Source of the DNA: Candidatus Peregrinibacteria bacterium
GTDB taxonomy: Bacteria > Patescibacteriota > Gracilibacteria > UM-FILTER-43-11
Length of the DNA stretch: 35,544 bases
Direction of reading: 5' to 3'
Assembly (NCBI GenBank): GCA_003154375.1
Contig: PMDG01000063.1
Location: 1-35,544 of the forward strand
Every line of letters begins with the position of its first letter. Positions within the stretch are counted from its first letter, which is position 1. This document shows positions 7,759 to 31,747 of the stretch, in pieces. The notes beneath the pieces were generated by a model that was not told the DNA's origin, searched no databases, and saw only the letters and a list, made by a program, of their open reading frames with translations. The translations under genes and the position numbers were made by a program.

Positions 7759-9768
7759 TTAAATCTCCAGCGACTTCAATCGCTCGACCCAACCCTCTTG
7801 GGTCACGTCGAAACGAAGCGTGGTGATGCCTTTGGCGGCCTTCAGATAAGCGTCGCGCCGGCGGTTTCGCCCCTTTTTCAAGAGGTGGTGTCGGCCATCA
7901 AATTCAATATTCAGCTTTTTGGAAGGCAGATAGATATCCAATTCAAAGCCATCGATGAGGTGGTTGACGTGGATGGCGTGACCGTTGAGGTGTTTTTTCA
8001 GGATGTCGAAGCCTTTTTGCTCGGCTGGGTTCGGAAGCCTTGTTTGGGTGGAAATCAGGGCTTCATATTGTTCTCGAAGCATCGCAGGGGACGATTTGTG
8101 GTAGAGATGATAAATTTGGGTCAGGGTCATGATGTCGACCTCGGGCATGCCAGAGAAATCTCGGGTCTCGATCGTTTGGAAAAGGTATTGCTTCAGGCGT
8201 TTGCTATCGGTTCCGAAAATTCCCCAGAGCCCGTAAAGCGAATTGCTGATGTCCTGATTGGTCAGTTCAACGAAAATCGAGGTGGCCTGTTCCCCTATGG
8301 CGTCGATGAGGTCCATGGGGACCACACGGTTATCCAGGCTTTGAAGGCCATAGAGGCTGTTGCCGACATCCCGACCGATCATTCGGAATTTCATGGATCG
8401 GATTTTTTCGGCGAACGCCTCCATGAGGGTTCGGGGGACCACACGGCTGTCCAGGCCTTGCAGACCGTATAGGCCGTTGCTGATGGATTGACCGCTGAAA
8501 TCAACTTTCGATTCCCGGATTTTTTCAGCGATGGTTTCCAGAAGCTGGCGAGGCACCGCACTCGAGTCCAAGCCTTGGAGTCCAAACAGCATCATCCCAA
8601 CGGATTGGCCGTCGAATTCCACTTTGGATTGCCAGATTTTTTCAGCGAAGGCTTCCAAAAGGGGGCGGGGGGCCACCGTGGAGTCGAGGCTATGGAGCCC
8701 ATACAAGGCATAGCCCAATTGGCGAGGCTGGAATTCCTCGGTCAATTGCTCGATTTTTTCCGTGAGCGCTTGCAAAAGCTCAGGGGTCACTACGCCCGAA
8801 TTCAATTCGCGGAGTCCATTGAGCGCGCGGCTGATATCCTCAGGATCCATCGATTCAAGGGTCCTGATTTTGTCGGTGATCGCCAAGAGCAAATTTTCCG
8901 GCACCAAAGAGGAGTCAAGGCGTCCAAGGCAATGCAAGGCGTTGCTAATGGCCAGGCTGCTAAGCACGCAGTGTGGGGAACTGATTTTTTTGGCGAGCAC
9001 CTCCAGAAACTCCTTGGGGACCACGTCTTTGTGCAGCCGTTCAAGGGCATGGAAAAAAATAAGCGCGTTCTGCTCATCGAGCCCTTCTAGCGAAGAACGT
9101 ATTTTTTTGGAGAAGGCGGTCATGAACTCTGCCATTTCGGTCCGATAGAGCCTGAAGATCCCTTTTTTCCCACGGGTGAATTCGGAGAAATAGAAAAAAA
9201 GGGTGGAGTAGTTTTCCGTATGCAAGGGGACTTCCCCTTGGCTGATCAGTTTGGTCAATTTTCGGATCAGGCCTCCATATTTCACCTTGTTTTTCATGAG
9301 GTCGAACACCTCTTGGTTGAGCTCTTTCTGTTTGTTGAGGATCGGCGGGGGAAGGAAGGGGCGAGGGGGTCTGTCTGGCTTTCCAGTGGGAGGATTTGGC
9401 AGGTTCGCTTCCTCTGAAGTGGGTGGCTCCTGGGTTCCGATGAGGTCTTTTTCCAGTTCCCTCAGGATATTCATGGAAAAAAAGCGCAATGCGGACGTAT
9501 GGAAGGCATTATTGCCACGGAGGAGTTTGACAATGGCTTCACGGGCCTTTTTGACGCCTTCGATCGGATTGTTGTGTCTCAGCAGAAAATCCTTGCTCAT
9601 GACCGAGTCGATCGTTTGCACCAGAATCTTAAAGTCTGCCTCATTGAACTTGGAGGAGTCTTGCATTCTCGCATGGCACAACAGTGGATCTTGGAGTCTC
9701 GCCACCACAAGTTGCACAGGATCTAAACCAAGGGGTTGTCCCGCCTCTGATTTCTTGTCTGGGGGCAT
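7759..9768 (-). CDS. OPR-like repeat protein with C-terminal RAP domain
   Basis: A 669-residue protein built like eukaryotic organellar RNA-binding factors. Residues ~245-520 contain successive ~38-residue helical repeats of the form YGLQ.LDS.VVPR.LLEA.AEKI, matching the octotricopeptide/FAST-kinase-like repeat class. Residues ~603-669 form a RAP domain: DIYLPSKKLNIEFDGRHH is the endonuclease-fold-like core, with the arginine-rich KKGRNRRRDAYLKA and RFDVTQEGW after it. The N-terminal 230 residues are helical, with a Pro-rich stretch around 115-145 (TGKPDRPPRPFLPPP). No signal peptide. Known relatives bind and stabilise or cleave specific RNAs in chloroplasts and mitochondria; an RNA-binding role here is inferred. 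It sits upstream of murJ and is divergent from the small gene at 9932. Confidence 0.8.
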   Translation of the reverse strand: MPPDKKSEAGQPLGLDPVQLVVARLQDPLLCHARMQDSSKFNEADFKILVQTIDSVMSKDFLLRHNNPIEGVKKAREAIVKLLRGNNAFHTSALRFFSMNILRELEKDLIGTQEPPTSEEANLPNPPTGKPDRPPRPFLPPPILNKQKELNQEVFDLMKNKVKYGGLIRKLTKLISQGEVPLHTENYSTLFFYFSEFTRGKKGIFRLYRTEMAEFMTAFSKKIRSSLEGLDEQNALIFFHALERLHKDVVPKEFLEVLAKKISSPHCVLSSLAISNALHCLGRLDSSLVPENLLLAITDKIRTLESMDPEDISRALNGLRELNSGVVTPELLQALTEKIEQLTEEFQPRQLGYALYGLHSLDSTVAPRPLLEAFAEKIWQSKVEFDGQSVGMMLFGLQGLDSSAVPRQLLETIAEKIRESKVDFSGQSISNGLYGLQGLDSRVVPRTLMEAFAEKIRSMKFRMIGRDVGNSLYGLQSLDNRVVPMDLIDAIGEQATSIFVELTNQDISNSLYGLWGIFGTDSKRLKQYLFQTIETRDFSGMPEVDIMTLTQIYHLYHKSSPAMLREQYEALISTQTRLPNPAEQKGFDILKKHLNGHAIHVNHLIDGFELDIYLPSKKLNIEFDGRHHLLKKGRNRRRDAYLKAAKGITTLRFDVTQEGWVERLKSLEI

Positions 9769-14040: not shown

Positions 14041-15282
14041 ATGGTTTCTCCTTTTCAGCGCATCGTCCGGAGTCTGGTGATGGTTTCGCCTTTTTTCTAT
14101 CCCGCCTACCTGCTCCATTTCAAGTTGGCAGGTATTCCGTTTACTGGGCTGGAGGTTTTCGTCTACCTGCTTTTCGGCCTGTGGCTTTTCGAAATCATCC
14201 GCGACCATCGCAATGTAGTATGGGACAGGGCGATCCGAAATTATTGGCTGGCAGCTTTTTTGCTGGTAGCAGGAGCCACGATAGGGGCGTTTTTGGCACC
14301 TGTCGGAATAATGCTTCCCGATGGCTCTGTTTTCGAGGGGCGCCAGGTCGCCTTGGGCATCTGGAAAGGCTGGGTAATCGCACCTGTGCTCTATTTCGCG
14401 GTTTTGACCCAAGTCCTTCGATCCTCAAATGAGGTTCATCGGATTCTTCGGGCTTACATTTATTCTGCAGCCTTGGTTGGTTTGGCATCGCACGCGGTGG
14501 CCCTGTTCGGCGATGGGTTGGCCATCGATTACCGATTGAAGGGCTTTTTCGAATCCGCGAACTATCTTGCGCTTTATATCATTCCTGCCCTGTTGATTGA
14601 TATCCGTTTCCTGTTCGATCGTCGTGATCCTCTCAAGATTTGGGATTATTTGGATCTTTCCTCCTTCGCGATTTTGGCCTACACGCTCCTTTTTACCCAG
14701 TCTTACGCTGGAATTTTGGCGGTGTTTGGAGCCTTTGGCATTTTCGTCCTCATCCAATTGTTCAAAAACCGCAAGCAACGAAAGACGATCGGCATCGCCT
14801 TCGCGATTCTGGTTTTCGCTTTCCTTTCGATCGTGGCCACGCAGATCCGCACACCCAAATTCAGGCAGTTTGTGGATTTCCAGAACCGCTCCAGCACCTC
14901 GGTCCGATTGGAGATTTATCAAGTCGCATTGGATTTGGTCCAAAAGCATCCTTTGGTGGGTGTAGGCCCCGGCCTATTCCAACCCAACTATCAAGTCGAT
15001 GCCCCGCTCGTGCTGGGCCATGCGCCCATGGAATGGAATATGCCGCACCCGCACAATATTTTCCTCGGCTTTTGGTTGAATGCGGGCCTGCTCGGACTGG
15101 CCGCCTTCCTAGTTCTCCTGGTCTTGGCCCACCGCCGCTTCACCTACCCCCTCATCGCCCTGTGGAGCATCGTGATCCATGGTCTGTTCGATATGCCCTT
15201 TTGGAAGAACGATTTGGCTATGATTTTTTGGCTGATTCTGGCGGTGATTGTGGTACTACAGAGGGAAGGTAAACAGGCATGA
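14041..15282 (+). CDS. O-antigen ligase/polymerase family membrane protein (Wzy_C)
   Basis: A 413-residue protein with about eleven transmembrane segments and the Wzy_C domain. The family signature PHPHNIFLGFWLNAGLLGL (about residues 336-354) includes the conserved PHN..L motif, preceded by the periplasmic loop (RSSTSVRLEIYQVALDLVQKHPLVGVGPGLF) with the conserved Arg and the GVGPG turn. Members polymerise or transfer lipid-linked polysaccharide, or attach glycans to proteins, at the outer face of the inner membrane. The ATG immediately follows the repeat block. Its 3' end (15223 onward) resembles the fragment at 17681-17784. Confidence 0.85.
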   Translation: MVSPFQRIVRSLVMVSPFFYPAYLLHFKLAGIPFTGLEVFVYLLFGLWLFEIIRDHRNVVWDRAIRNYWLAAFLLVAGATIGAFLAPVGIMLPDGSVFEGRQVALGIWKGWVIAPVLYFAVLTQVLRSSNEVHRILRAYIYSAALVGLASHAVALFGDGLAIDYRLKGFFESANYLALYIIPALLIDIRFLFDRRDPLKIWDYLDLSSFAILAYTLLFTQSYAGILAVFGAFGIFVLIQLFKNRKQRKTIGIAFAILVFAFLSIVATQIRTPKFRQFVDFQNRSSTSVRLEIYQVALDLVQKHPLVGVGPGLFQPNYQVDAPLVLGHAPMEWNMPHPHNIFLGFWLNAGLLGLAAFLVLLVLAHRRFTYPLIALWSIVIHGLFDMPFWKNDLAMIFWLILAVIVVLQREGKQA

Positions 15283-15330
15283 GGGGCGGGGAATTTCGTA
15301 TGGTAACCAGTTATATGATATATTTTTGAG
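15223..15330 (+). repeat. 3' end of ligase gene, duplicated copy 1
   Basis: This stretch (last ~20 codons of the ligase gene plus ~48 bases after it) resembles 17681-17784 on the same strand. The first 45 positions are about three quarters identical by eye; beyond that CGTATGG and the closing TATTTTTGAG are shared at matching spacing. The two copies bracket the AT-rich cassette segment. Confidence 0.6.
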
Positions 15331-15357
15331 GCCAATTAACAACTTAACAACGATTTT

Positions 15358-15657
15358 ATGCTTGATAAAGAGCCAATTTTATCCACCCCGCAATTAGACG
15401 AAATTCTATCTCGGCTTCCACCTCCAAGTTTAAAATTACATTTGAGCATCACCTTTAACCCAGTAATTGAGGCAGAAAAAAGATTAAAGAAAAAATTGAG
15501 TGATGGTGCATTAACTCAATCTGATATTGAGAATGAATTAGCTCAACTTGATGACAAAATTGGAGGTATGGTTGACCAAAAGGAAGGTTTGGTAGGTTAC
15601 CTGAGAATGGCATTGCCGTTTGAGCTTCACTACGATCTAAAAAAATTGCCACTCTAG
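15358..15657 (+). CDS. Unknown 99-residue protein, probable cassette gene
   Basis: Not recognised. It is soluble and mostly helical, with a charged amphipathic centre (VIEAEKRLKKKLSDGALT, SDIENELAQLDDKIGG). Base composition is clearly more AT-rich than the ligase gene before it, like the next two genes. It ends 20 bases before an attC-like site (15677), the usual compact arrangement of an integron gene cassette. No Shine-Dalgarno sequence precedes the ATG. Function unknown. Confidence 0.6.
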   Translation: MLDKEPILSTPQLDEILSRLPPPSLKLHLSITFNPVIEAEKRLKKKLSDGALTQSDIENELAQLDDKIGGMVDQKEGLVGYLRMALPFELHYDLKKLPL

Positions 15658-15676
15658 TAGCCTCAAAAATACATCA

Positions 15677-15847
15677 TATAACAGCGCCTGTAAGGTAACA
15701 ATAATAGCACCACTCGGGCTCGCTTCGCTTTAAATCAGGGTGTCGCTATTTTGTTACCCAAACCCAGCACCCGATTGGATTCACCTCCGTTTCGCTCCAG
15801 TGTATATTTTGGACGCGCGGGGCTTCTTACCAGGCGCAGACGTTATA
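15677..15847. mobile_element. attC-like integron recombination site 1
   Basis: Outer inverted boxes TATAAC (15677-15682) and GTTATA (15842-15847) flank a second inverted pair: GCGCCTGTAAG on the left and CTTACCAGGCGC on the right, which differ by one extra base in the right arm. The spacer is A on the left and AGAC on the right. This layout (R box, short unequal spacer, L box, extrahelical base) is that of an integron attC. A further inverted pair (GGTAACAATAATAGC / GCTATTTTGTTACC) extends the fold. At 171 bases it is long for an attC. Confidence 0.7.
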
Positions 15848-15873
15848 CGCAATTACAAATCTTTTTTATCAAC

Positions 15874-16371
15874 ATGGTATCTATAAGACAATTTAAGCCT
15901 GAAGACAAAGAAACGCTTTTGGAATTAATAGTGGAATTGCAAGATTATTTGATTAAAATTGATCCACTGAAAAAATTACGAAGGCTTCCAGGATATGAAG
16001 AAAAGTATATAGGAAATCTTCTCAAAAAAATTGAGGGTAAAAACGGGGCAATTTATATCGCAAATGTTGGGAATATTCCTTTTGGCTTTATCGCTGGGAT
16101 TATTGAAGAACAAACCAAGGATCATTTATTGGAGTACATGCCGACAAAATCAGGTCGTGTGTTGGAACTAATAGTGTCAGAAAAACAACGAGGAAAAAAT
16201 TTAGGGTCAATGCTAATGAGAAAAATCGAGGAATATTTTCTACAACAAAACTGTGATGTCGTTCGTGTTGAAATTTTTAAGACAAATAATCCTGCCCATA
16301 ATTTTTACAAAAAGCACGGGTATGATGACAGAAATATCGATATGATAAAAAAAATTCGTAACAGCGTATAA
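15874..16371 (+). CDS. GNAT family N-acetyltransferase, probable cassette gene
   Basis: A 165-residue acetyl-CoA-dependent acetyltransferase. Motif A with the CoA-phosphate-binding turn is seen in VLELIVSEKQRGKNLGSML (RGKNLG fits the R/Q-x-x-G-x-G/A pattern), and motif B in NPAHNFYKKHGYDD near the C-terminus. The ATG at 15874 starts the fold at once (MVSIRQFKPEDKETL); the open frame extends upstream only through the attC-like site. The gene is AT-rich and sits between two attC-like sites, so it is a complete cassette (about 15842-16441). The substrate is unknown; resistance- or toxin-type acetyltransferases are common cassette cargo. Confidence 0.88.
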   Translation: MVSIRQFKPEDKETLLELIVELQDYLIKIDPLKKLRRLPGYEEKYIGNLLKKIEGKNGAIYIANVGNIPFGFIAGIIEEQTKDHLLEYMPTKSGRVLELIVSEKQRGKNLGSMLMRKIEEYFLQQNCDVVRVEIFKTNNPAHNFYKKHGYDDRNIDMIKKIRNSV

Positions 16372-16446
16372 CAGCGCCTATGCGGTTCGGCTGCGGCCTC
16401 TCACAAATTGCCCGCGGGCAACTTCGCATCAGGCGCATACGTTAAG
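16367..16446. mobile_element. attC-like integron recombination site 2
   Basis: TATAAC (16367-16372) and GTTAAGT (16441-16447), the latter a perfect match to the GTTRRRY core. The inner arms are GCGCCTATGCG and CGCATCAGGCGC, again with one extra base on the right arm, and the spacers A and ATAC match site 1. Length is about 80 bases, in the normal attC range. The left end overlaps the stop of the acetyltransferase gene. Shared core sequences with site 1 argue strongly that both are recombination sites of one system. Confidence 0.8.
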
Positions 16447-16509
16447 TGAAATTCAGAATTCGGTCTTTAGACATATAAAGATATTAATAATGAAAAAAAT
16501 CTAAATTTT

Positions 16510-16971
16510 ATGAATTACAAACACACTCAAATTGGCTACCTGATGCTGGTTGTTACGCTGGCAGTGTTGGTGCTTTTCGCATGGGCTCATATTACGGCCT
16601 CCGACGAGCCCCCTTCGGCTGATTCAGGCATAAATCTCCTCGTTACTGCCACAATGGCATTGATTCTGTTTATTCTTGCTTCCTTTGGGTCACTTCAAGT
16701 CATTATTGATGGAAAATATTTACGGATCAAATTTGGATATGGTATTTATCATAAAAAGTTTTCCCTTAATGACATAGTCTCCGCTAAAACCGTAAGGAAT
16801 CGTTGGTATTATGGATGGGGAATAAGAGGATGCTTATGGTCCAAGATGTGGATTTACAATGTTTCAGGTTTTGATGCGGTTGAAATAAAGCTGAAAAATG
16901 GTAAAGCGTACAGGATAGGCACAGATGAACCTAAAAAATTAGAACAAGCGATTCTGCATTCAATTAAATAA
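16510..16971 (+). CDS. Two-TM protein with PH-like domain, probable cassette gene
   Basis: A 153-residue protein with two transmembrane helices (about residues 9-28 and 44-63) followed by a cytoplasmic beta-rich segment, LQVIIDGKYLRIKFGYGIY, then SLNDIVSAK and a C-terminal IKLKNGKAYRIGTDEPKKL. This strand pattern with a final helix fits bacterial PH-like domains found after two helices. The role is unknown. It follows the second attC-like site and shares the low GC content of the cassette genes, so it is probably a third cassette, but I see no attC after it. Confidence 0.7.
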   Translation: MNYKHTQIGYLMLVVTLAVLVLFAWAHITASDEPPSADSGINLLVTATMALILFILASFGSLQVIIDGKYLRIKFGYGIYHKKFSLNDIVSAKTVRNRWYYGWGIRGCLWSKMWIYNVSGFDAVEIKLKNGKAYRIGTDEPKKLEQAILHSIK

Positions 16972-17101
16972 TAAAGAACGACGGAACTCTGAACTCAAGC
17001 CACGCTGTGCCTTTCGTTTTTTTTGACGCTATCTTTTGACAAGTAAACAAAAGTTCACTAAACTAAATATCTATTTTTGAATCTTAGCTATTTTTTTGAA
17101 T

Positions 17102-17671
17102 ATGGGTAATTCTATTGTCTCCGTCGAGCAGATCGATAATTGCATCCACCTCATCCGCGGCCAGCGGGTGATGCTGGATTCAGATCTGGCGATTCTTTAC
17201 GGTGTTCCCACAAAGCGGCTGAATGAGCAGGTGCGGCGGAACATCGATCGGTTCCCTAGGGATTTTATGTTTCAGCTCTCAAAAGACGAGCTTGAAAATT
17301 GGAGGTCGCAAATTGTGACCTTCAAATCAAATTCTTTAAGGTCGCAAATTGCGACCTTAGACAAAAGACGTGGCAAGCACAGAAAATACCTGTCGTATGC
17401 ATTTGCTGAGCAGGGTGTCGCCATGCTCTCTAGCGTCCTTCGGTCTTCGCGGGCAGTGTCGGTGAATATCGAAATCATGCGGGCTTTTGTACGCATGCGG
17501 CATATCTTAGAATCGAGCAGGGAATTGGCCAAGTCGATGGGGGAATTGCGCTCTTTTGTTCTTAAGAAATCAAATAAAGTCGACCAGGAGTTTCGTCGCG
17601 TGTGGAAAGAGTTCGAAAAACGGCTAGCACCACCCTCCGAAACCCGAAAGATCGGTTTTCGACTTGAATAG
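17102..17671 (+). CDS. ORF6N-domain protein
   Basis: A 189-residue protein. Residues ~5-105 form an ORF6N domain, a DNA-binding module common in phage antirepressors and mobile elements: IRGQRVMLDSDLAILYGV, RLNEQVRRNIDRFPRDFMF, and YAFAEQGVAMLSSVLRS are its consensus blocks. The C-terminal part is helical (RHILESSRELAKSMGEL). The central loop is expanded, with RSQIVT and RSQIAT repeated; the DNA there contains a perfect 10-bp inverted repeat. ATG at 17102 is preferred to a TTG two codons earlier. It lies at the right end of the inserted segment, next to the ligase fragment, and supports its mobile origin. Confidence 0.85.
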   Translation: MGNSIVSVEQIDNCIHLIRGQRVMLDSDLAILYGVPTKRLNEQVRRNIDRFPRDFMFQLSKDELENWRSQIVTFKSNSLRSQIATLDKRRGKHRKYLSYAFAEQGVAMLSSVLRSSRAVSVNIEIMRAFVRMRHILESSRELAKSMGELRSFVLKKSNKVDQEFRRVWKEFEKRLAPPSETRKIGFRLE

Positions 17672-17680
17672 GGGTTTTCC

Positions 17681-17784
17681 ATTTTTTGGCTGATCCCTGC
17701 GGCGATTGTGGTGTTGCAAAAGGAGCCGAAAAGCAAAAAGGGATCCGTATGGGTCGGCGATAGTTTTTTTGTTGTATTTTTGAG
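17681..17784 (+). pseudogene. Remnant of an O-antigen ligase gene 3' end
   Basis: The plus-strand frame from 17681 reads IFWLIPAAIVVLQKEPK, matching the C-terminus of the intact ligase (IFWLILAVIVVLQREGK). No ligase sequence precedes it: upstream is the ORF6N gene. Similarity continues into the non-coding bases to TATTTTTGAG at 17784. It is a scar of either a second ligase gene or of an integration event at the ligase 3' end. Confidence 0.65.
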
Positions 17785-17797
17785 AGTGCGATATCCA

Positions 17798-17825
17798 TTG
17801 ACAATTTATCAATATATTGTAAAAT
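17798..17825 (+). promoter_or_regulatory. Promoter of the repeat-gene operon
   Basis: Consensus TTGACA (17798-17803) and TAAAAT (17820-17825) spaced by 16 bases, the only strong promoter seen before the five-gene repeat cluster. It overlaps the out-of-frame ATG at 17824, which would then not be transcribed from here. Confidence 0.55.
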
Positions 17826-17921
17826 GTTTTACTCTGACCCAAAAAAATTACGAAAGAGTCTAAGTTCTTCCCCATCGCCCCCGAGATCCTCGAAGCCCGC
17901 GACCGCGAGCTCCAATCAAAG
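17824..17921 (+). other. Out-of-frame N-terminal segment of repeat gene A (-1 shift at A7)
   Basis: The ATG at 17824 opens with MFYSDPKK, resembling the MSDPK start of paralogue D, but this frame is not that of gene A. A -1 shift at the seven-A run (17841-17847) would join it to the gene A frame, which upstream of its TTG reads FFPIAPEILEARDRELQSK, clearly the conserved N-terminus of the family. The run is in the A_AAA_AAA phase of canonical -1 slippery sites. Mutation, assembly error and programmed shift are all possible. Confidence 0.6.
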
Positions 17922-19763
17922 TTGTCCGAATTTTACCCGAACGAGGCTGATCGCCAGATCGCCGAGCAGATCCTTGTGCCCCAATTGCGCTCGGTGATTT
18001 CCGAGACCTTGTCTAATTTCAATTCTTCCCGAGGCGAATTGGCTACTGTTCCGCCATCCCCCGCCGAGATTCCGGATCTTTGTACCAAGGTCGACCTGGC
18101 CCTCGCCGCCAACCGCGACCTGCTCGATGCCGAGGGTTTGGGAAAGCCGCTGTTAGATTACGTTCGATTTGTGCGCGCGGCGGTGAATGCCGAGATAGGG
18201 GAGGCGTTCAAGGCGCATTGCCGAACCGTTCTTGCCAAACATGGCATCACCGATCGGGCCACTTTCATTGAGAAGGGGCCAGATTGGTTAATGAGAACTG
18301 AGCTTCCCCCTTACGGCAAAGGCAGGGCCTTCTCGGGGCTGATTTTTGGTGAGACCCTGGGAACAGTTACCCTTAATCATCTTATCGAGATCTCCGATAT
18401 TCTTGGCTTTCCCGATCTTTCTACTGACACCAAGCAGAAATGCCTCGATATCCTCGCCGCCCAAGGCATCACGGATCGCGCCACCCTCTTTGCGCAGGGG
18501 CCGACAGGGTTCATGAAAACCGATTTTCCCCCCTACGGGAAAGGCCAAGCCTTCGTAGGTCTCATCCTCGGCGAGACGCTCAGATCTGTGACGGTTGACC
18601 ACCTTCTCCACCTCGCCGACGCCCTTAGTCTCCCCGACCTTTCCGACAAAACCAGACTACGGTGCCTTGCCACTTTGGCCACCCATGGTATTGCCGATCG
18701 GGAAACGCTGATCGCTTTCACTGCCGATAAGTTTAAAAGGGCGAGTTTTCCACCCTTCGGCAAGGGGTTTCGTTTAGCCCGTTTCATTTTGACCGAGGCA
18801 GCAAAACCCCTCACGCCCGATCACCTTGGTCGCATCGCCGACAAGCTTGGCTGGCCCGAAAAATCGAAAGAGGAAAAGCTTCAGGCATACCGTGCCGTTT
18901 TGTCTAAGCATGGCATTGTGGATCGGCTCACTCTTCTGGCAAAAGGGGTGGTCTGGTTTATCAGGTCCGACTTTTTCCCCTATGGCAAAGGGGGTGCCTT
19001 CGCAAACTTAATCCTCGGCGAAGTGGTCAATAATTTTTCTTTTAGCCGTCTTACCCGCATTGCCGACAAACTCGGCTGGCCAGAGGCCGATCCGAAAGAA
19101 AAGCTCCAGGCATACCGTTCGGCCCTCGCCATCCACGGTGTGATTGACCGGAATTCTCTCTTGGCGAATGGATCACATTGGTTTGAGAAAGCCGACTATC
19201 CTCCCTATGGCAAGGGTTTGTCCTTCGCCGGCCTGATTCTGGGCGGATCCGTGGAAAAGGTCACCATCGACAACCTCCGCCACATCGCCGAAATCCTCGG
19301 CCTCCCCGATCTTGCTGACGAGACTAAGAGAAAAATCCGTGACGCGTTCACGGTCCACGGCATCACAAATCGCGCTGAACTTCTGTCGAAAGGGCCGAAA
19401 TGGTTCACCAGAACTGACTTTCTTTCCTACGGAAAGGGCAATGCCTTCGCGAGCCTGATACTCGGTGAGACGATCACGGGTTTAAATATCGCCTGTCTCC
19501 AGCGTATCGCCGGCATTCTCGGCTGGCCTGAGCCCAGCGAATCTGAAAGGCTCCAATCTTACAGCTCTTCCCTGGCCAATCAGGGTATGACCGATCGCAT
19601 TTCGCTGTTGTCATTCGGAGTAACCGAATTCAGGGAAGCTGATTTTCCCCCTTACGGCAAGGGTACGGCATTTGCCGGTGAAATCCTCGGTGATTCGGGC
19701 CTAAGAGTCACTCTTACCCATCTCCGCCTCATTGCCGACATCCTTTTTCCAGAATCGAAATGA
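17922..19763 (+). CDS. Repeat protein A of the PPYGKG-repeat family (7 repeats)
   Basis: Not a known family. In the open frame from TTG (17922) it has 613 residues: the remainder of the conserved N-terminal domain (NEADRQIAEQILVPQLRSVI, GLGKPLLDYVRFVR, AHCRTVLAK; residues 1-106), then seven repeats of 73-75 residues, the last one short and ending in RIADILFPE-like sequence (LIADILFPESK). Each repeat runs HGI.DR..LL.KG..WF....DFPPYGKG.AFA.LILGE, about eight variable residues, then HL.RIAD.LG and one of two endings, WPE.S.EEKLQ.YR.ALA or LPDLS.ET....ALA. No signal peptide or membrane helix; probably an all-helical solenoid in the cytoplasm. Its stop overlaps the start of gene B (ATGA). The true N-terminus is probably upstream, beyond a frameshift. 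Confidence 0.75.
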   Translation: MSEFYPNEADRQIAEQILVPQLRSVISETLSNFNSSRGELATVPPSPAEIPDLCTKVDLALAANRDLLDAEGLGKPLLDYVRFVRAAVNAEIGEAFKAHCRTVLAKHGITDRATFIEKGPDWLMRTELPPYGKGRAFSGLIFGETLGTVTLNHLIEISDILGFPDLSTDTKQKCLDILAAQGITDRATLFAQGPTGFMKTDFPPYGKGQAFVGLILGETLRSVTVDHLLHLADALSLPDLSDKTRLRCLATLATHGIADRETLIAFTADKFKRASFPPFGKGFRLARFILTEAAKPLTPDHLGRIADKLGWPEKSKEEKLQAYRAVLSKHGIVDRLTLLAKGVVWFIRSDFFPYGKGGAFANLILGEVVNNFSFSRLTRIADKLGWPEADPKEKLQAYRSALAIHGVIDRNSLLANGSHWFEKADYPPYGKGLSFAGLILGGSVEKVTIDNLRHIAEILGLPDLADETKRKIRDAFTVHGITNRAELLSKGPKWFTRTDFLSYGKGNAFASLILGETITGLNIACLQRIAGILGWPEPSESERLQSYSSSLANQGMTDRISLLSFGVTEFREADFPPYGKGTAFAGEILGDSGLRVTLTHLRLIADILFPESK

Positions 19764-22276
19764 TTAACCAAACCTACCCCATCGTCCCCGAACTCTTCGA
19801 AACCCGCGACCGCGAGCTCCAATCCAGGCTGCCCGGACTTTACCCGAACGAAGCCGATCGCCAGATCGCCGAGCAGATCCTTGTGCCCCAGCTTCGCTCG
19901 GTGATTTCCGAGGCCTTGTCCGATTTCAATTCAACTCGTGGCGGACTGGCCACTGTCCCGCCCGCGCCAATCGAACTCCCGAATCTTTGCGCCGAGGTCG
20001 ATAAGACCCTCTCCGCCAACCGCGACTTGCTCGATTCCGAGGGGTTGGGGAAACCGCTTTTCGATTACGTCCGATCCGTCCGCAAAGCGTTGAGGGCAGA
20101 GATGGAGGAGGCGTTCAGGGCGCATTGCCGGTCGATGCTCGCCGTCCACGGCGTTACCGACTGGCATTCGCTTGATGACAAGGGGGTTAGGTGGTTTATA
20201 AAAACCGATTTTCCTCCTTATGGGAAAGGCACCACTTTCATCGGTCATATTTTGGGGATTTCGTTTTTGCATATCCATAGCGACGATTTGCGAAAGCTCG
20301 TCGATGTATTGGGCCTTCCAGTCCTGTCAGGTGCCAGAAGGGGATTGTATGTTGCTGCTCTTGCCAGCCATGGAATCGTTGATCGCCAGGGCCTATTGAG
20401 AAAGAGCGGCCAATGGTTTGTAACGGCCGATTTCCCGCCCTTTGGCAAAGGCTATGGTTTGGCAACGAGAATATTGAGGGAGACCGTCCATTTTCCAAAA
20501 AACGATGATCTTAATCGTATCGCCGATATTCTCGGGTTTTCCAGGCCAACGCCCGAAGAGGAGCGTCGCGGCTACCTTGATGCCATTGTCGCCCAAGGGG
20601 TTTTGAATAGGGGCGATCTATTGGACAAGGGACCGAAATGGTTCAGAAAAACAGATTTTGCCCCGTACGGCAAAGGCAGCGTTTTAGCGGGGTTGATCCT
20701 TGGCGAGAGGGTTAGAAACATTACCCTCGAACACCTCCGCCGAATTGCCGGCATTATCGGCTGGATGGAGGCCGGCGAACAGGAAAGGCTTCAGGGTTAT
20801 CGCAACGCCCTTGCCAAACATGGCATCATTGATTGGAAGACATTGTTGGATGCGGGATCCAGTTGGTTTATCAAGTCCGATTTCCCGCCTTTTGGAAAAG
20901 GCACTTTCTTGATCAATGTCGTATTGGGTGAGAAAGGACATGTGAGCCTTGGCCGCCTTGGGCGTTTAGCCGATGCGCTTGGATTCGTGAGGCCAACGCC
21001 CGAAGAGGAGCGCCAAGGGTATCTCAATGCCTTCGCCCTTCATGGCGTCACGGATTACAAGTCGTTTATGGGAAAAGAGTTGATTTGGTTTGTGAGCACG
21101 GATTTCCCACCTTACGGAAAGGGGAATGCGATTGCTAGTAAAATACTGGGTCGGAAAATGGGAAGGCTGAAACTTCATCATCTGGAATTGCTCGCCGATG
21201 CGCTTGGATTCGTAGGGCCGACTCCCGAAGGGGAGCGCCGAAGCTATATCGATGCCCTCGCCATCCATGGCATCACCGACCGTTATTCGCTTTTGGAAAA
21301 GGGGGTGATGGGGTTTTGGAATGCCACATATCCACCTTACGGAAAAGGGTTCGCCCTAATGGCAAAAATTATCGGTGAGCAAATCAAGGGCAATCTGAGC
21401 GCGAACCATCTGCATCGAATGGCCGATGTGTTAGGTTGGCCCAAGGTGAATGCGGAGGGTTGGCTGGATCGATATCGTTCCGTCTTGATGTCTCATGGGA
21501 TCGCGGATCGTCGTATTCTATTGGAAAGGGGTCCTGGGTGGTTTGTGAAAACCGATTTTCCCCCCTATGGCAAAGGATCGGCCTTTGCGGCTCGGATTTT
21601 GGGTGTGCGGGTCAATTACCCAAGTGTCGATCACCTCGTGAAAATCGCCGAGACGCTCGGACTCCCCGGTCTTTCTGATGGCACAAGGAGAAAATTCCTC
21701 GCAGTCCTTGTAGCCCAAAACATCAACGATCGCCAAACCTTAATCGGAAAAGGGTCGAAATGTTTCAAAAATGCCGATTTTTCCCCCTATGGAAAAGGAT
21801 CGGCCTTCGCAAGCCTCATCCTTGGAGAGGTTGTTGGGAATGTCACCATTGTTCACCTGCGCCGCATCGCCGACATCCTCTTTCATCGAGATGAGATAAC
21901 CAATGCCACCCCATACCCCATAGTCCCAAAGATCTTCGAAAAATACGAGCGGGAACTAGTCGCCAAGTTGCCCAGGCTTTACCCGAATGAGGGCGAGCGC
22001 CAGATCGCCGAGCAGATCCTCGTGCCCCAGCTGCGTTTTGCGATAGTCAAGGCTCTTTCTGATTTTGCTTTCTTTAGAAAGTTTGTCGCCTCAGTTCCCC
22101 CTTCGGCTTCCGAGATCCCGAATCTCTGCGCCGAGGTGGACAAGGCCCTCGCCGTCAACCGCGACCTGCTCGATTCCGAGGGGCTTGGCAAGCCGCTGTT
22201 CGATTATGTCCGATCCGTCCGCGAGTCGGTGCGGACCGACCTCGAGAGCATCGCCACCGCCCTCGGCGGGGAATGA
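19760..22276 (+). CDS. Repeat protein B (8 repeats, extra N-type domain at C-terminus)
   Basis: 838 residues. The N-terminal domain (1-129) starts MINQTYPIVPELFETRDREL and is close to that of the paralogues. Eight ~74-residue repeats follow (about 130-715); repeats 2, 4 and 5 show a third style of ending (FSRPTPEEER, FVRPTPEEER, FVGPTPEGER). After the short last repeat the frame runs on into TNATPYPIVPKIFEKYEREL and a second complete N-type domain (~718-838), which ends without repeats in SIATALGGE. This looks like an in-frame fusion with the start of a further paralogue that lost its repeats. Start overlaps the stop of A (ATGA) and its own stop overlaps a possible ATG for C. Role unknown. 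Confidence 0.8.
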   Translation: MINQTYPIVPELFETRDRELQSRLPGLYPNEADRQIAEQILVPQLRSVISEALSDFNSTRGGLATVPPAPIELPNLCAEVDKTLSANRDLLDSEGLGKPLFDYVRSVRKALRAEMEEAFRAHCRSMLAVHGVTDWHSLDDKGVRWFIKTDFPPYGKGTTFIGHILGISFLHIHSDDLRKLVDVLGLPVLSGARRGLYVAALASHGIVDRQGLLRKSGQWFVTADFPPFGKGYGLATRILRETVHFPKNDDLNRIADILGFSRPTPEEERRGYLDAIVAQGVLNRGDLLDKGPKWFRKTDFAPYGKGSVLAGLILGERVRNITLEHLRRIAGIIGWMEAGEQERLQGYRNALAKHGIIDWKTLLDAGSSWFIKSDFPPFGKGTFLINVVLGEKGHVSLGRLGRLADALGFVRPTPEEERQGYLNAFALHGVTDYKSFMGKELIWFVSTDFPPYGKGNAIASKILGRKMGRLKLHHLELLADALGFVGPTPEGERRSYIDALAIHGITDRYSLLEKGVMGFWNATYPPYGKGFALMAKIIGEQIKGNLSANHLHRMADVLGWPKVNAEGWLDRYRSVLMSHGIADRRILLERGPGWFVKTDFPPYGKGSAFAARILGVRVNYPSVDHLVKIAETLGLPGLSDGTRRKFLAVLVAQNINDRQTLIGKGSKCFKNADFSPYGKGSAFASLILGEVVGNVTIVHLRRIADILFHRDEITNATPYPIVPKIFEKYERELVAKLPRLYPNEGERQIAEQILVPQLRFAIVKALSDFAFFRKFVASVPPSASEIPNLCAEVDKALAVNRDLLDSEGLGKPLFDYVRSVRESVRTDLESIATALGGE

Positions 22277-22308
22277 TTTATCAAAACGGCCGATCATTGC
22301 TCAACACC

Positions 22309-23781
22309 ATGTCCAACCCCGCCCCCTACCCCATCGCCTCCGAGATCCTCGAAACCCGCGACCGCGAGCTCCTATCAAGGCTGTCCGGATTTTATCCTAA
22401 CGAGGCCGATCTCCAGATCGCCGAGCAGATCCTTGTGCCCCAGTTGCGAACGGTGATTTCCGAGGCGCTGTCCAATTTTAATTCGACACGGGGCGAGCTT
22501 TCCTCGGTCCCGCCCGCGCCGGCCGAGCTTCCAGCTCTTTGCGCCGAGGTTGATAAATCCCTCGCCACCAACCGCGATTTGCTTGATTCCGAGGGGTTGG
22601 GGAAACCCCTGCTCGATTACGTCCGTTCCGTCCGCAAAGCGTTGAAGGCAGAGATGGATGAGGCGTTCAAGGCGCACTGCAGGTCGTTGCTCGCCGAACA
22701 CGGCATGGTCGATCGTCAAGCTTTGTTTGATAAGGGTGTCAAATGGTTCATGTCTTCACAGGCTCGATTCCCGCCCTTCGGAGGCGGTAGGGGGTTCCTG
22801 GGCCTCGTGTTAGGTGAAAAAAAGGTTGGCATCAGTAACATAAATCTTGGCCGCTTGGCTGACGCTCTTGGGTGGCCCGAAAAGTCCGAGACGGAAAAGC
22901 TCCAGGCTTACCGTTCCGCCCTCGCCTTCCATGGCATTTCTGACCGCGCCTCGCTTTTGAGTTTCGGTATTCCTCGGTTTGCCCATGCTGATTTCCCGCC
23001 CTACGGCAAGGGAAAGGCCTTTGTCAGTTTTGTCCTCGGCGAGTCGAAAAACGCTCTTGGCATTGGCCATTTTCGCCGCATCGTTGATGCCCTCAGTCTC
23101 CCCGATCTTTCCGAAGAGACTCAGCAGAAATATCGAAATGCACTCGCGGCCCATGGCGTTCATGACAAAAATTCCTTGCTCGCGAAGGGGAGGGATTGGT
23201 TTCTTAAGGCCGACTTTCCGCCTTACGGAAAGGGTCATGCTTTCGCCGGCTTGATCCTCGGTGAGGTTGTGTATGATCTGCTTTCCAGCCACTTCCCTCG
23301 CATTGCCAACGCCCTTGGGCTTCCGATCCTCTCGGCAGTGACCCTAGAGACCTGTCGATCAACTCTCGCCCACCATGGCGTCGCTGGCCGCAGTATGCTT
23401 TTTGCGAAGGGGTCGAGTTGGTTTAGGGAAACCGAATTTTCCCCCTACGGAAATGGAAGGGCCCTCGCCAGCCTACTGCTCGGGGAAGCGGTTCACCCTC
23501 TCACACATGTTCACCTCCGCCGCATCGCCGACCTCTTGGGTTGGCCAGAGCAAACTGAGAAAGAAAGGCTCCAAGATTGTCTTTGCGCCCTCGCCGCCCA
23601 CGGCATTGCGGACAGGACCACTCTCCTCGGTAGGGGGTCTTATTGGTTCATGAAAGCCGAGTTCCCTCCTTATGGCAAAGGCTCGGCCTTCGCCGGCCTT
23701 ATTATCGGCGAAACGGTTTACAATTTATCCCTCGACCACCTCCGTCGCATCGCCGACATCCTTTTCCCCGAACAAAAATGA
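22309..23781 (+). CDS. Repeat protein C (5 repeats)
   Basis: 490 residues from ATG 22309 (MSNPAPYPIASEILETRDREL), chosen because it matches the starts of the paralogues; an upstream ATG at 22273 overlaps the stop of gene B and would add twelve unrelated residues. N-terminal domain 1-121, then five repeats. The first repeat has the variant SSQARFPPFGGGRGF in place of the usual TDFPPYGKG, with two extra residues, as does the third repeat of protein E. The last repeat ends RIADILFPEQK. Same coupling pattern: its TGA overlaps the ATG of gene D. No signal peptide. Function unknown. Confidence 0.8.
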   Translation: MSNPAPYPIASEILETRDRELLSRLSGFYPNEADLQIAEQILVPQLRTVISEALSNFNSTRGELSSVPPAPAELPALCAEVDKSLATNRDLLDSEGLGKPLLDYVRSVRKALKAEMDEAFKAHCRSLLAEHGMVDRQALFDKGVKWFMSSQARFPPFGGGRGFLGLVLGEKKVGISNINLGRLADALGWPEKSETEKLQAYRSALAFHGISDRASLLSFGIPRFAHADFPPYGKGKAFVSFVLGESKNALGIGHFRRIVDALSLPDLSEETQQKYRNALAAHGVHDKNSLLAKGRDWFLKADFPPYGKGHAFAGLILGEVVYDLLSSHFPRIANALGLPILSAVTLETCRSTLAHHGVAGRSMLFAKGSSWFRETEFSPYGNGRALASLLLGEAVHPLTHVHLRRIADLLGWPEQTEKERLQDCLCALAAHGIADRTTLLGRGSYWFMKAEFPPYGKGSAFAGLIIGETVYNLSLDHLRRIADILFPEQK

Positions 23782-25253
23782 GCGACCCGAAACCTTACCC
23801 CATCGCCCCCGAGATCCTCGAAACCCGCGACCACGAGCTCCAGTCCAGGCTGCCCGGATTTTACCCGTACGAGTCCGATCTCCAGATCGCCGAGCAGATC
23901 CTTGTTCCCCAGTTGCGCTCGGTTATCTCCGAGGCGTTAGCCAATTTCAATTCAACTCGTGGCGAACTGGCCCTCACCCCACCCTCCCCCGCCGAACTTC
24001 CAAAGCTTTGCGCCGAGGTCGACAAGGCTTTGGATGCCAACCGGAACCTGCTCGATGCCGAGGGATTGGGCAAGCCGCTGTTCGACTACATCCAATCCGT
24101 CCGCGAGTCGATGAAGGCCGAGATGATTGAGACATTCAGGGCGCATTGCCGATCGATGTTCGCCGCCCATGGTGTCACGGATCGGGCAAGCCTCTTGGAA
24201 TTTGGTCCGACTAGATTTAAAAAGACAGATTTTTCTCCCTACAGTAAGGGCTTCGCCTTCGTCAATTTGATTCTTTGCGAGGCTGTTGGCGGTATTCTCA
24301 CGCTTGAACACCTCAGCCGCATCGCCGACATCCTCGGCTGGCCTGAGAAGCCTGAGGAGGAAAGGCTGCAGGGTTTCCGCTCAGCCCTCGCGGTCCACGG
24401 CATCAGAGACCGAAATTCCTTCATCGAGAAGGGGGCGGATTGGTTTAGGAATACCGACTTTCCCCCTTATGGCAAGGGTTGCGCTCTCGCAGGCCTGGTT
24501 TTGGGAGAGGGGGTGAGGTATCCGAGTGTCGAACACCTCAGCCGCATCGCCGACATCCTCGGCTGGCCTGAGAGGTCTGAGGAGGAAAGGTTCCAAGGTT
24601 ACCGCTCCACCCTTGGCGTCCACGGTATAGTTGACCGCAATTCACTCCTGACGAAAGGTTCGAATTGGTTTCGGAGAGCTGACTTTCCCCCCTACGGAAA
24701 GGGCAATGCCTTCGCCAGTCTGATCCTCGGCGAGAGGGCTTACTCATTGTCTCACCCCCACCTCCGCCGTATTGCCGATATCCTTGGTTGGCCTGAAGAG
24801 TCGCCAGAAGAAAAGGCCCAGGACTACCGTGCTGCGCTGGGCATCCACGGCATCGCCGACCGCTCTACGCTTCTCGCGAAGGGGCCGATATGGTTTATGA
24901 AAACTGACTTCCCTCCTTATGGCAAAGGAAAGGCCTTCGCAGGCATGATTCTTTGTGACACAGTGAATATTTTGACCCTTCCTCGCCTCCGCTGTATCGC
25001 CGATATCCTTGGTTGGCATGAGGAGTCTCCGGAAGAAAAGGCCCAGGACTACCGTGCTGCGCTGGTTATCCACGGCGTCGCCGATCGCGCCACCCTTCTT
25101 GCGAAGAGCGTCAACTGGTATGTGAAAACTGACTTTTGCCCCTACGGAAAGGGCACTGCCTTCGCCAGCCTGATCCTAGGTGATTCGGTTTGCCATCTTT
25201 CCCTAGCCCACCTCCGCCGAATCGCCGACATCCTTTTCCCAGAGAAAAAATAA
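23778..25253 (+). CDS. Repeat protein D (5 repeats)
   Basis: 491 residues from ATG 23778 (MSDPKPYPIAPEILETRDHEL); an upstream extension of the frame into gene C is rejected because it is unlike the paralogues. N-terminal domain 1-130, then five repeats that are the most uniform in the cluster, with repeats 3 and 4 sharing endings WPEESPEEKAQDYRAALGI and WHEESPEEKAQDYRAALVI, a sign of recent internal duplication. Some usually Gly positions are Cys here (ILCEAV, ILCDTV). Start and stop overlap the neighbours (ATGA before, TAATG after). No signal peptide or membrane helix. Function unknown. Confidence 0.8.
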   Translation: MSDPKPYPIAPEILETRDHELQSRLPGFYPYESDLQIAEQILVPQLRSVISEALANFNSTRGELALTPPSPAELPKLCAEVDKALDANRNLLDAEGLGKPLFDYIQSVRESMKAEMIETFRAHCRSMFAAHGVTDRASLLEFGPTRFKKTDFSPYSKGFAFVNLILCEAVGGILTLEHLSRIADILGWPEKPEEERLQGFRSALAVHGIRDRNSFIEKGADWFRNTDFPPYGKGCALAGLVLGEGVRYPSVEHLSRIADILGWPERSEEERFQGYRSTLGVHGIVDRNSLLTKGSNWFRRADFPPYGKGNAFASLILGERAYSLSHPHLRRIADILGWPEESPEEKAQDYRAALGIHGIADRSTLLAKGPIWFMKTDFPPYGKGKAFAGMILCDTVNILTLPRLRCIADILGWHEESPEEKAQDYRAALVIHGVADRATLLAKSVNWYVKTDFCPYGKGTAFASLILGDSVCHLSLAHLRRIADILFPEKK

Positions 25254-26491
25254 TGCCCAATCCAACCTACCCCATCGCCCCCAAGATCCTCGAAACCCGC
25301 GAACGCGAGCTCCAATCCAGGCTGCCCGGATTTTACCCTGACCCCGACTCGCTCCAGATCGCCGAGCAGATCCTTATGCCCCAGATACGCTCGGTCATTG
25401 CCGAGACCCTGTCCAATTTCAATTCAACTCGTGGCGAACTGGCCCTCACTCCACCCTCTCCCGCCGAGCTTCCGGCTCTTTGCGCCGAGGTCGACAAGTC
25501 CCTCGACGCCAACCGCGATTTGCTCGATTCCGATGGGCTGGGCAAGCCGTTGTTCGATTACGTCCGCTCCGTCCGCGAATCGGTGAAGGCCGAGATGATC
25601 GAGGCGTTCAAGGCCCATTGCCGATCGTTGCTGGCAACCCATGGCGTGACCGACCGCACAACCCTGCTCGCGAAGCGGACGAGATGGTTCATCCAAGCTG
25701 AGTTTCCGCCCTTTGGTAAGGGCATGGCTTTCATCGGTCTTATACTCGGTGAGACGATTTATAATCTTTCACTTGTCCATCTTAACCGTATCGCCGATTT
25801 CTTAATCATCCCCGAGCTTTCCGAGGAGACAAAATGTAAATTCCGCTCAGTCCTTGCCAACCATGGAGTGACGGATCGCAATTCTCTCCTCGCGAAAGGG
25901 ACGTTGTGGTTCCAGCAAACTGACTTCACGCCCTTCGGCACGGGACAGGTTTTCGCCGGTCTGATCCTTGGTGAGACTGTAGCTTATCCAACCGTCGCTT
26001 GCATTCACCGCGTTACCGATGCTCTCGGTCTCCCCGATCTATCGGAGGAGACGAAAGAAGGATTGTGTTCTGCCCTTGCAACTCACGGTATCGTCGACCG
26101 CGTCACCCTGTTCGATAGGGGGACCGCATGGCTCAAGTCTCCCAAGGCTCAGTTCCCACCCTTTGGAGGGGGTCACAGGCTTCTCAGTTTCACGTTGGGC
26201 GAAACGGTTCATGATATCAGCCTCGGTCACCTTGGGCGTCTTGCGGACATCCTAAGCCTCCCGCAATTTTCAGGGTCTACGAAAAAGGCGTTTTTATCCG
26301 CCCTGGCCGCACACGGCATTGTCGACCGCGCCACCCTCGTCGCGAAGGGGCCGACATGGTTAAAGAGGTCGGATTTCTTCCCTTACGGAAAGGGTATGGC
26401 TTTTGTAGGCAAGATACTCGGCGATACGGTTTACAATCTCTCCCTGGGCCACCTTCAGCGTGTCGCCGACATCCTATTCCCCGAAAAATAA
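25253..26491 (+). CDS. Repeat protein E (4 repeats)
   Basis: 412 residues from ATG 25253 (MPNPTYPIAPKILETRERELQ). N-terminal domain 1-127 is complete; four repeats follow, the third with the FPPFGGGHRL variant and the last ending RVADILFPEK. It is the shortest intact member. Its TAA shares a base with the ATG of the gene D junction pattern (TAATG) at both ends, the second one leading into the truncated copy F. Function unknown. Confidence 0.8.
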   Translation: MPNPTYPIAPKILETRERELQSRLPGFYPDPDSLQIAEQILMPQIRSVIAETLSNFNSTRGELALTPPSPAELPALCAEVDKSLDANRDLLDSDGLGKPLFDYVRSVRESVKAEMIEAFKAHCRSLLATHGVTDRTTLLAKRTRWFIQAEFPPFGKGMAFIGLILGETIYNLSLVHLNRIADFLIIPELSEETKCKFRSVLANHGVTDRNSLLAKGTLWFQQTDFTPFGTGQVFAGLILGETVAYPTVACIHRVTDALGLPDLSEETKEGLCSALATHGIVDRVTLFDRGTAWLKSPKAQFPPFGGGHRLLSFTLGETVHDISLGHLGRLADILSLPQFSGSTKKAFLSALAAHGIVDRATLVAKGPTWLKRSDFFPYGKGMAFVGKILGDTVYNLSLGHLQRVADILFPEK

Positions 26492-26574
26492 TGAGCGACC
26501 CGAAACCTTACCCCATCGTCCCCGAACTCTTCGAAACCCGCTTCAGGTTATTTGCTATAATGTCCCCGATCTAA
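26491..26574 (+). pseudogene. Truncated sixth repeat-gene copy (F)
   Basis: The ATG at 26491 overlaps the stop of gene E exactly as in the intact junctions and encodes MSDPKPYPIVPELFETR, the first 17 residues of the family, then changes abruptly to unrelated codons and stops. The break coincides with the start of the promoter region of the FecR gene, so the right edge of the tandem array was cut here. Confidence 0.8.
26556..26561 (+). promoter_or_regulatory. Extended -10 promoter of the FecR lipoprotein gene
   Basis: TATAAT preceded by TGC (extended -10), 23 bases before the ATG at 26584. No -35 match is needed for this class. The leader is short and lacks a Shine-Dalgarno sequence. Confidence 0.6.
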
Positions 26575-31369: not shown

Positions 31370-31747
31370 ATGCCCAAAATCGCTTTCCTTTCCTCTGGCT
31401 CTGGCGACCATTTCCAGTCGCTGATTGATTCAAAAAAGTCGGGACAGCTCAAGGCCGAGATCGTCTGTCTGATCACGGACAAGGCCGATTGTGGCGCGGC
31501 CCAGAAAGCTCGTGCGTCTGGTGTCCGTGTCTATTATTTCGACGCGCGTGAGGTGGATCCAAAAATCTATGACGATGAGGTGATTGCCACCTTGGATTTT
31601 TTCAGGGTCGATTGGGTAGCCTTGGATGGCTACGATCGTGAAATGACTTCAGCGCTAAGGGGGAAAGTCGATGGACGCCTTGTCCATCTGGAGACGGAGG
31701 AGTCCGTTTCGCAATTTATTAAAAAAGTTGTCGACGAGGGGGAATAG
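31370..31747 (+). CDS. PurN-like formyltransferase N-terminal fragment or divergent domain
   Basis: 125 residues resembling the N-terminal half of phosphoribosylglycinamide formyltransferase: the nucleotide-binding start KIAFLSSGSGDHFQSLID (compare ISGxGSNLQAII), CLITDKADCGAAQKARASGV, and the YDDEVIATLDFFRVDWVALDGYDR helix-strand (compare VVLAGFMR). It stops where the enzyme has its catalytic NIHPSLLP block; only GRLVHLETEE follows, so the Asn, His and Asp of the active site are missing. It is either a degenerate or truncated gene, or a divergent non-catalytic protein. A TATAAT at 31344-31349 precedes it. Confidence 0.6.
   Translation: MPKIAFLSSGSGDHFQSLIDSKKSGQLKAEIVCLITDKADCGAAQKARASGVRVYYFDAREVDPKIYDDEVIATLDFFRVDWVALDGYDREMTSALRGKVDGRLVHLETEESVSQFIKKVVDEGE

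Follow-up and report, generated by a model that had tools for sequence, protein, structure and literature searches.

Background

The TALE and TALE-like proteins and pTERF (PMC11417379), which occur in bacteria and metagenome-assembled genomes, are built of tandem helical units that combine a fixed framework with variable sites, and their arrays differ in length. The same design is seen in the DNA analysed here, a stretch of 35,544 nucleotides from a Candidatus Peregrinibacteria bacterium (contig PMDG01000063.1; hereafter the window), where five adjacent genes, g1 to g5, encode a constant N-terminal domain (N-domain) followed by consecutive copies of a unit with the motif PPYGKG. The text of PMC11417379 makes no mention of Peregrinibacteria, Patescibacteria or helix-turn-helix (HTH) repeats. 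TALE and TALE-like repeats are 33-35 amino acids long (about 30-35 when pTERF is included) and consist of two helices with variable residues 12 and 13 in the loop between them, whereas the 29 window units are spaced at 74-76 amino acids, include a mini-hairpin among about five secondary-structure elements and have ten or so variable positions, and so do not qualify as TALE repeats. The window family also differs from TALE and pTERF in that there is no sequence or fold match, in its constant N-domain and SF2/SNF2 partner, and in that its DNA binding is presumptive.

In type I restriction, HsdS and HsdR form a system in which a constant region with exchangeable recognition modules aims an SF2 motor. 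The window family resembles this system only in how it might work; no HsdS target recognition domain, methyltransferase or nuclease domain was found in it, and the modules are tandem arrays instead of two target recognition domains.

Helicase linkage and exchange of repeat units

Our reading is that the products of the five genes serve as array proteins in a modular recognition system that is coupled to a helicase and has a ligand that is probably DNA. We regard the case for it as evenly balanced, and the DNA ligand, the sequence specificity, the docking of the N-domain and the biological role are what we infer. Judged from the sequences, the anatomy is that of a motor, a constant N-domain and an interchangeable array, and the sequences also show the limits of the family, the helicase fusions and operons, the exchange of modules and the change in divergence between N-domain and array.

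The repeats are fused to, or lie directly behind, an SF2/SNF2 helicase in 8 of 14 clear repeat loci (genomes are designated by G numbers, G000 being the genome of the window); the tally leaves out G303/G304, where half a repeat is found in a methyltransferase-like protein. Helicases constitute a small percentage of genes, and the linkage far exceeds chance when set against this general share, which is not a computed background. C-terminal fusions to SF2 helicases are found in G130, G269, G337 and G351, with a ResIII score in G337 just below the cut-off (21.6 against 22.5 bits), while the repeat genes of G010, G229, G323 and G332 follow directly behind SNF2/SF2 genes. The upstream helicases of G323 and G332 match Pfam PF00176 and PF00271 and leave gaps of 3 and 14 nucleotides, the ResIII helicase of G229 overlaps the repeat gene by 4 nucleotides, and the motor of G010, with SNF2-like motifs by eye and no Pfam match, overlaps by 1 nucleotide. 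A sequence-only reading of the window had guessed at a cytoplasmic role such as the binding of nucleic acid, phage or partner proteins; these fusions and operons favour a nucleic-acid role, with the binding itself presumed.

The partner helicases score against PbeA, ZorD, DpdE and other SNF2/ResIII-type defence models in PADLOC. This likeness is confined to the motor domain and comes without system context, and the repeat protein (g4) has no PADLOC match. The only match at the window locus is a neighbouring ORF6N gene (candidate PDC-S05), and PADLOC found no complete known defence system.

The N-domain is acidic, helical and about 120 amino acids long. A profile search with it gave E-values of 1e-49 to 4e-48 on G323/G332, whose N-domains are among the profile rows, and 2e-26 on G335, whose N-domains are not. 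With regard to membership in the helicase-linked array system, the window N-domain is thus homologous to that of the helicase-operon proteins, but no helicase stands beside it. In G335 an SNF2 helicase that shares 60% identity with the G332 enzyme is directly followed by two proteins in which the window-type N-domain is combined with another unit, type B, of ~95 amino acids (YF.N.ENVRADL.AF...LNTG...CANGE.V.W.TYLRRA..GLGLA), present in 6 and 5 copies and with no Pfam identity. The idea of a constant coupling domain with exchangeable arrays is supported most strongly by this combination of the same N-domain and an orthologous SNF2 helicase with a different tandem unit. Type B is also fused C-terminally to ResIII-type helicases in G253 (L258:320-3238, minus strand, five units) and G034 (L262:3708-6257, plus strand, three units), and one G010 protein has a single type B unit beside five PPYGKG repeats. 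A possible copy of the N-domain at the N-terminus of the SNF2 partner scored an hhalign P of 0.008, against 0.012 for a decoy that lacks the N-domain.

Type B tandem proteins are present in the genome of the window as well, on contigs C36 (L255:8571-10886 and L256:8721-9128, both minus strand) and C69 (L257:1-1603, minus strand), without an adjacent helicase.

Framework and variable sites of the unit

The framework described in the sequence-only reading (HGI.DR..LL.KG..WF / DFPPYGKG.AFA.LILGE / HL.RIAD.LG) was found again, with the G of GKG invariant in 29/29 units. Pairwise comparison of the window repeats gives a mean identity of 45% in amino acids and 54% in DNA, with 70% in DNA for the top pair. 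Assembly collapse and chance repetition are excluded because this low mean identity shows that the units are old.

The positions of highest entropy among the 29 units are 24, 38 (after GKG), 51, 16, 50, 55, 9, 27, 58 and 2 (g4r3 numbering), in agreement with the variable sites that had been pointed out before. The combination of a fixed framework and recurrent variable sites holds beyond the window, in that an unrelated genome with recent duplicates shows raised variation at the same sites. Among four recent repeat duplicates in G323 the proportion of nonsynonymous differences (pN) is 0.32 at the window-variable positions and 0.15 elsewhere (permutation p 0.007), with a proportion of synonymous differences (pS) of 0.40. 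The variable sites are under relaxed constraint in two lineages.

AlphaFold2, given an alignment of 38 dimers, modelled two successive repeats with a pLDDT of 96.1 and a pTM of 0.77. In the predicted unit, helices A (2-9) and B (15-28) precede a hairpin at PPYGKG, the strands of which are two residues long, and helices D (37-45) and E (54-63) follow. The model of full-length g4 (pLDDT 85.8, pTM 0.52) has a four-helix N-domain in addition to the repeats. Of the variable positions, 16, 24 and 27 line up along a single stripe of helix B, 38 is at the N-terminal end of helix D, the loop between helices D and E holds 50-51, and helix E carries 55 and 58; they are not obviously in the buried core and may form one face. 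The isoelectric point is 8.2-9.5 for the repeat parts and 4.8-5.2 for the N-domains.

The unit had not been recognised from sequence and no family could be assigned to it now. Pfam has no model above the cut-off for the five window proteins and no significant match to single repeats (29 and 66 sequences), and NCBIfam and PHROGs gave nothing convincing. The PPR, OPR, PUF and mTERF models of Pfam matched none of the five proteins, the 29 and 66 single repeats or the consensus. PDB sequence profiles have no significant match to the unit, and matches to endonuclease III, carboxypeptidase and PsbU (E 0.17-1.7) were dismissed as chance. Foldseek found no PDB match at E<=0.001 and none significant in BFVD for the two-repeat model and only insignificant matches for the full-length model; "no known fold" thus refers to PDB and BFVD.

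There is a weak resemblance of helices D-E to HTH helices 3-4, and of helices A-B with the hairpin to the RNA polymerase alpha-CTD; both similarities outscore all 150 column shuffles. Against Pfam PF13443 (HTH_26, cut-off 22 bits) the window proteins reach 12-20 bits, a consensus dimer 29 bits and a G010 protein 30.9 bits (3.2e-7), the last summed over several repeats. No single repeat reaches the cut-off, and Foldseek did not recognise a complete HTH fold in PDB with the pLDDT 96 model. The likeness to the Cro/C1-type HTH is limited to 19 columns of helices D-E (LILGE....HL.RIADILG), and the N-terminal half of the unit, with helices A and B and the PPYGKG hairpin, does not align.

Distribution and divergence

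Relatives occur in patches within one class of Patescibacteria (Gracilibacteria in GTDB terms). A profile of the 29 units matched in 12/353 genomes of the class and a broader profile in 16/353, while a sample of 380 genomes from the phylum gave one further match outside the class, which was judged spurious. The matches in G293 and G389 were both taken to be spurious. A scan of named records gave five loci, four from Ca. Peregrinibacteria and one from "Patescibacteria group". No relatives were found in IMG/VR, in phages and plasmids (tblastn), or in genome contigs queried with one protein.

In G130 (L075, L080) the reading frames stay open only if TGA encodes an amino acid, which it does under code 25, and the repeats there lack the PPYGKG insert. 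A further domain, GFI.IDG..Y..W....I....I..RL...G......F.E.DVR..C.D, is found beside the repeats in N- or C-terminal parts of L071, L073 and L077 from three genomes; it is HTH-like by eye, with HTH_8 (E 0.007) in one of them as the only match.

Between the five complete window N-domains pS is 0.27-0.48 (reaching at most 0.59 when the truncated g2 copy is included) and pN 0.12-0.19, whereas pS between the corresponding repeats is 0.55-0.83, with a sharp switch at codon 121-136. The paralogs in G323 show the same pattern (pS 0.42 for the N-domain, 0.59-0.84 for the repeats). Either the N-domains have been homogenised by gene conversion or older array cassettes have been placed behind a younger N-domain. 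In the N-domain tree the window groups with the helicase-operon protein G332b (37-41% identity, support 83/87) and not with G012 from the same family. Because the window N-domains are nearest to those of another family, a hotspot with transfer and inheritance with losses are equally likely.

Organisation of the locus

The genome to which the window belongs measures 1.58 Mb, is 97% complete and has the window on contig C57. Five adjacent repeat genes and a truncated sixth, with 29 units in total, had been reported, and a recount gave the same numbers for each gene. All are on the plus strand. The first, g1 (17847-19763), has its N-domain at 17847-18212 and 7 repeats at 18213-19760; g2 (19760-22276) has an N-domain, 8 repeats at 20120-21913 and a second, truncated N-domain at the C-terminal end (21902-22273); g3 (22309-23781) has an N-domain and 5 repeats (22672-23778), with the reading frame open from ATG 22273. 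The N-domains of g4 (23778-25253) and g5 (25253-26491) are followed by 5 (24141-25250) and 4 (25613-26488) repeats. The truncated sixth gene (26491-26574) encodes 17 N-domain residues (MSDPKPYPIVPELFETR) and then unrelated sequence, with the break just before a FecR-like gene (26584).

Each downstream start overlaps or abuts the preceding stop, with ATGA or TAATG at the junction. This arrangement is operon-like, and for this reason the genes appear to be co-transcribed from a predicted sigma-70-type promoter (TTGACA-16-TAAAAT, 17798-17825, plus strand), which with 11/12 positions is the best match of the region and a consensus match only. The start of g1 had been placed at ATG 17824, which proved to be out of frame with g1 and to overlap the -10 hexamer. 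The conserved reading begins at ATT 17847, the very position of the ATG in the paralogs, and this is the likely start, although a run of seven A at 17841-17847 could also conceal a one-base error there.

Upstream is a low-GC islet (15267-17680, plus strand) inserted in the 3' end of an O-antigen-ligase-like gene and containing a GNAT gene (15751-16371), a gene of unknown function (16510-16971) and ORF6N (17096-17671). The islet is flanked by 44-nt copies (15223-15266 and 17681-17724, 80% identical), a duplication of the ligase 3' end, of which the second resembles the ligase end of the congener G001. No integrase was seen in the islet, and its ORF6N gene is the one that matches PDC-S05.

In G001 the ligase is directly followed by the FecR-like gene, without an array. 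Elsewhere the corresponding interval holds repeat genes (G012, G015), a one-repeat remnant (G010) or a HigBA-like toxin-antitoxin pair (G011, L152:5576-6382). The suggestion of an accessory island is in line with the absence of the array from G001 and with the separate insertion of the islet, but a recently acquired random island has become less convincing because the repeat genes of G012 and G015 and the remnant in G010 occupy the same gene interval.

Two other genes of the window were noted. The product of the gene at 7759-9768 (minus strand), 669 amino acids long, combines helical repeats in tandem (ISNGLYGLQGLDS...) with a RAP/DUF559-like domain of nuclease fold at its C-terminus (Pfam DUF559, 5.9e-5) and is a bacterial OPR/RAP-like candidate. 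The purN-like gene (31370-31747; L144:2047-2418) encodes about 125 amino acids in G000 and G001 compared with about 190-205 in relatives and is apparently shortened in the genus.

Discussion

The repeat family is real and unrecognised, and the helicase link and the exchange of modules make it more remarkable than first described. DNA recognition is our best guess rather than a result. In the proposed mechanism the acidic N-domain would be the constant part for coupling or oligomerisation, and the exchangeable recognition part would be the basic array, a tandem series of compact alpha-helical domains (helices A and B, the mini beta-hairpin at PPYGKG, helices D and E). Ancestrally, the array would cooperate with an SNF2/SF2 translocase that is either fused to it or encoded by the upstream gene, and would keep the complex on a substrate that is most likely double-stranded DNA. 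Changes of specificity would come from the duplication and turnover of repeats and from the swapping of arrays, with the N-domain kept uniform among paralogs. The window would then represent a form that has expanded and become detached from the helicase, which is missing at the locus, and the biological role may be in defence and control of mobile DNA or in chromosome maintenance.

Several results weigh against this reading. Six of the 14 loci are not linked to a helicase (G000, which is the window, G008, G012, G015, G248 and the second G332 locus), and no close relative of the G332 SNF2, which is missing at the window locus, was found in the window's genome. Foldseek found no DNA-binding domain in PDB or BFVD, and the HTH_26 and alpha-CTD similarities are insignificant by hhalign probability, short and located on opposite halves of the unit. 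Positive selection at the variable sites is unsupported because pN is below pS in the G323 duplicates (0.32 and 0.40), and no result here supports a TAL-like code of one residue per base. The arrays might instead bind proteins, such as the helicase or proteins of phages or partner cells, and the helicase link would then reflect complex assembly and not target recognition. All-helical tandem repeats commonly bind proteins, and the missing nucleic-acid fold, the merely relaxed variable sites and the six loci where arrays stand alone are consistent with such a scaffold. We consider it rather unlikely in view of two unrelated tandem units joined independently to SF2 helicases with one N-domain in common, the contrast between basic arrays and acidic N-domains, and the weak HTH-like and alpha-CTD-like similarity.

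Arrays that bind RNA, with SF2 helicases and PPR/OPR-like repeats in RNA processing, would fit the modular layout and the fact that RNA is often the substrate of SF2 enzymes. However, the linked helicases are of the ResIII/SNF2/SWI2 type, typically translocases on double-stranded DNA, and the PPR, OPR and PUF models gave no match; RNA is an improbable ligand. The window array may also be partly decayed, and at the extreme it would be an orphan remnant of a mobile helicase system without present function in this organism, as could be suspected from the missing helicase, the ATT start of g1, the truncated sixth gene, the truncated N-domain fused in g2 and the absence of the array from G001. This is very improbable given that five reading frames of 412-838 amino acids are all still open, that pN/pS of the five complete N-domains has been well below 1 since duplication, and that there is a strong predicted promoter match.

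Conclusions

Under the helicase-coupled reading, the N-domain should dock to its SNF2 partner, and the choice of substrate should lie with the array. In its widest form, which we hold only tentatively, it would describe a new bacterial motor-recognition system in which an SNF2/SF2 translocase is aimed by swappable arrays, with at least two unrelated and undescribed types of DNA-recognition repeat on one constant docking domain, and a modular, possibly programmable DNA-binding scaffold with 75-amino-acid units, larger than those of TALEs. New families of modular DNA-binding repeats are rare and useful. The same N-domain and helicase with different arrays constitute a built-in evolutionary experiment in which the motor proteins hint at the substrate, and the array family offers a concrete handle on proteins from the candidate phyla radiation that have yet to be characterised.

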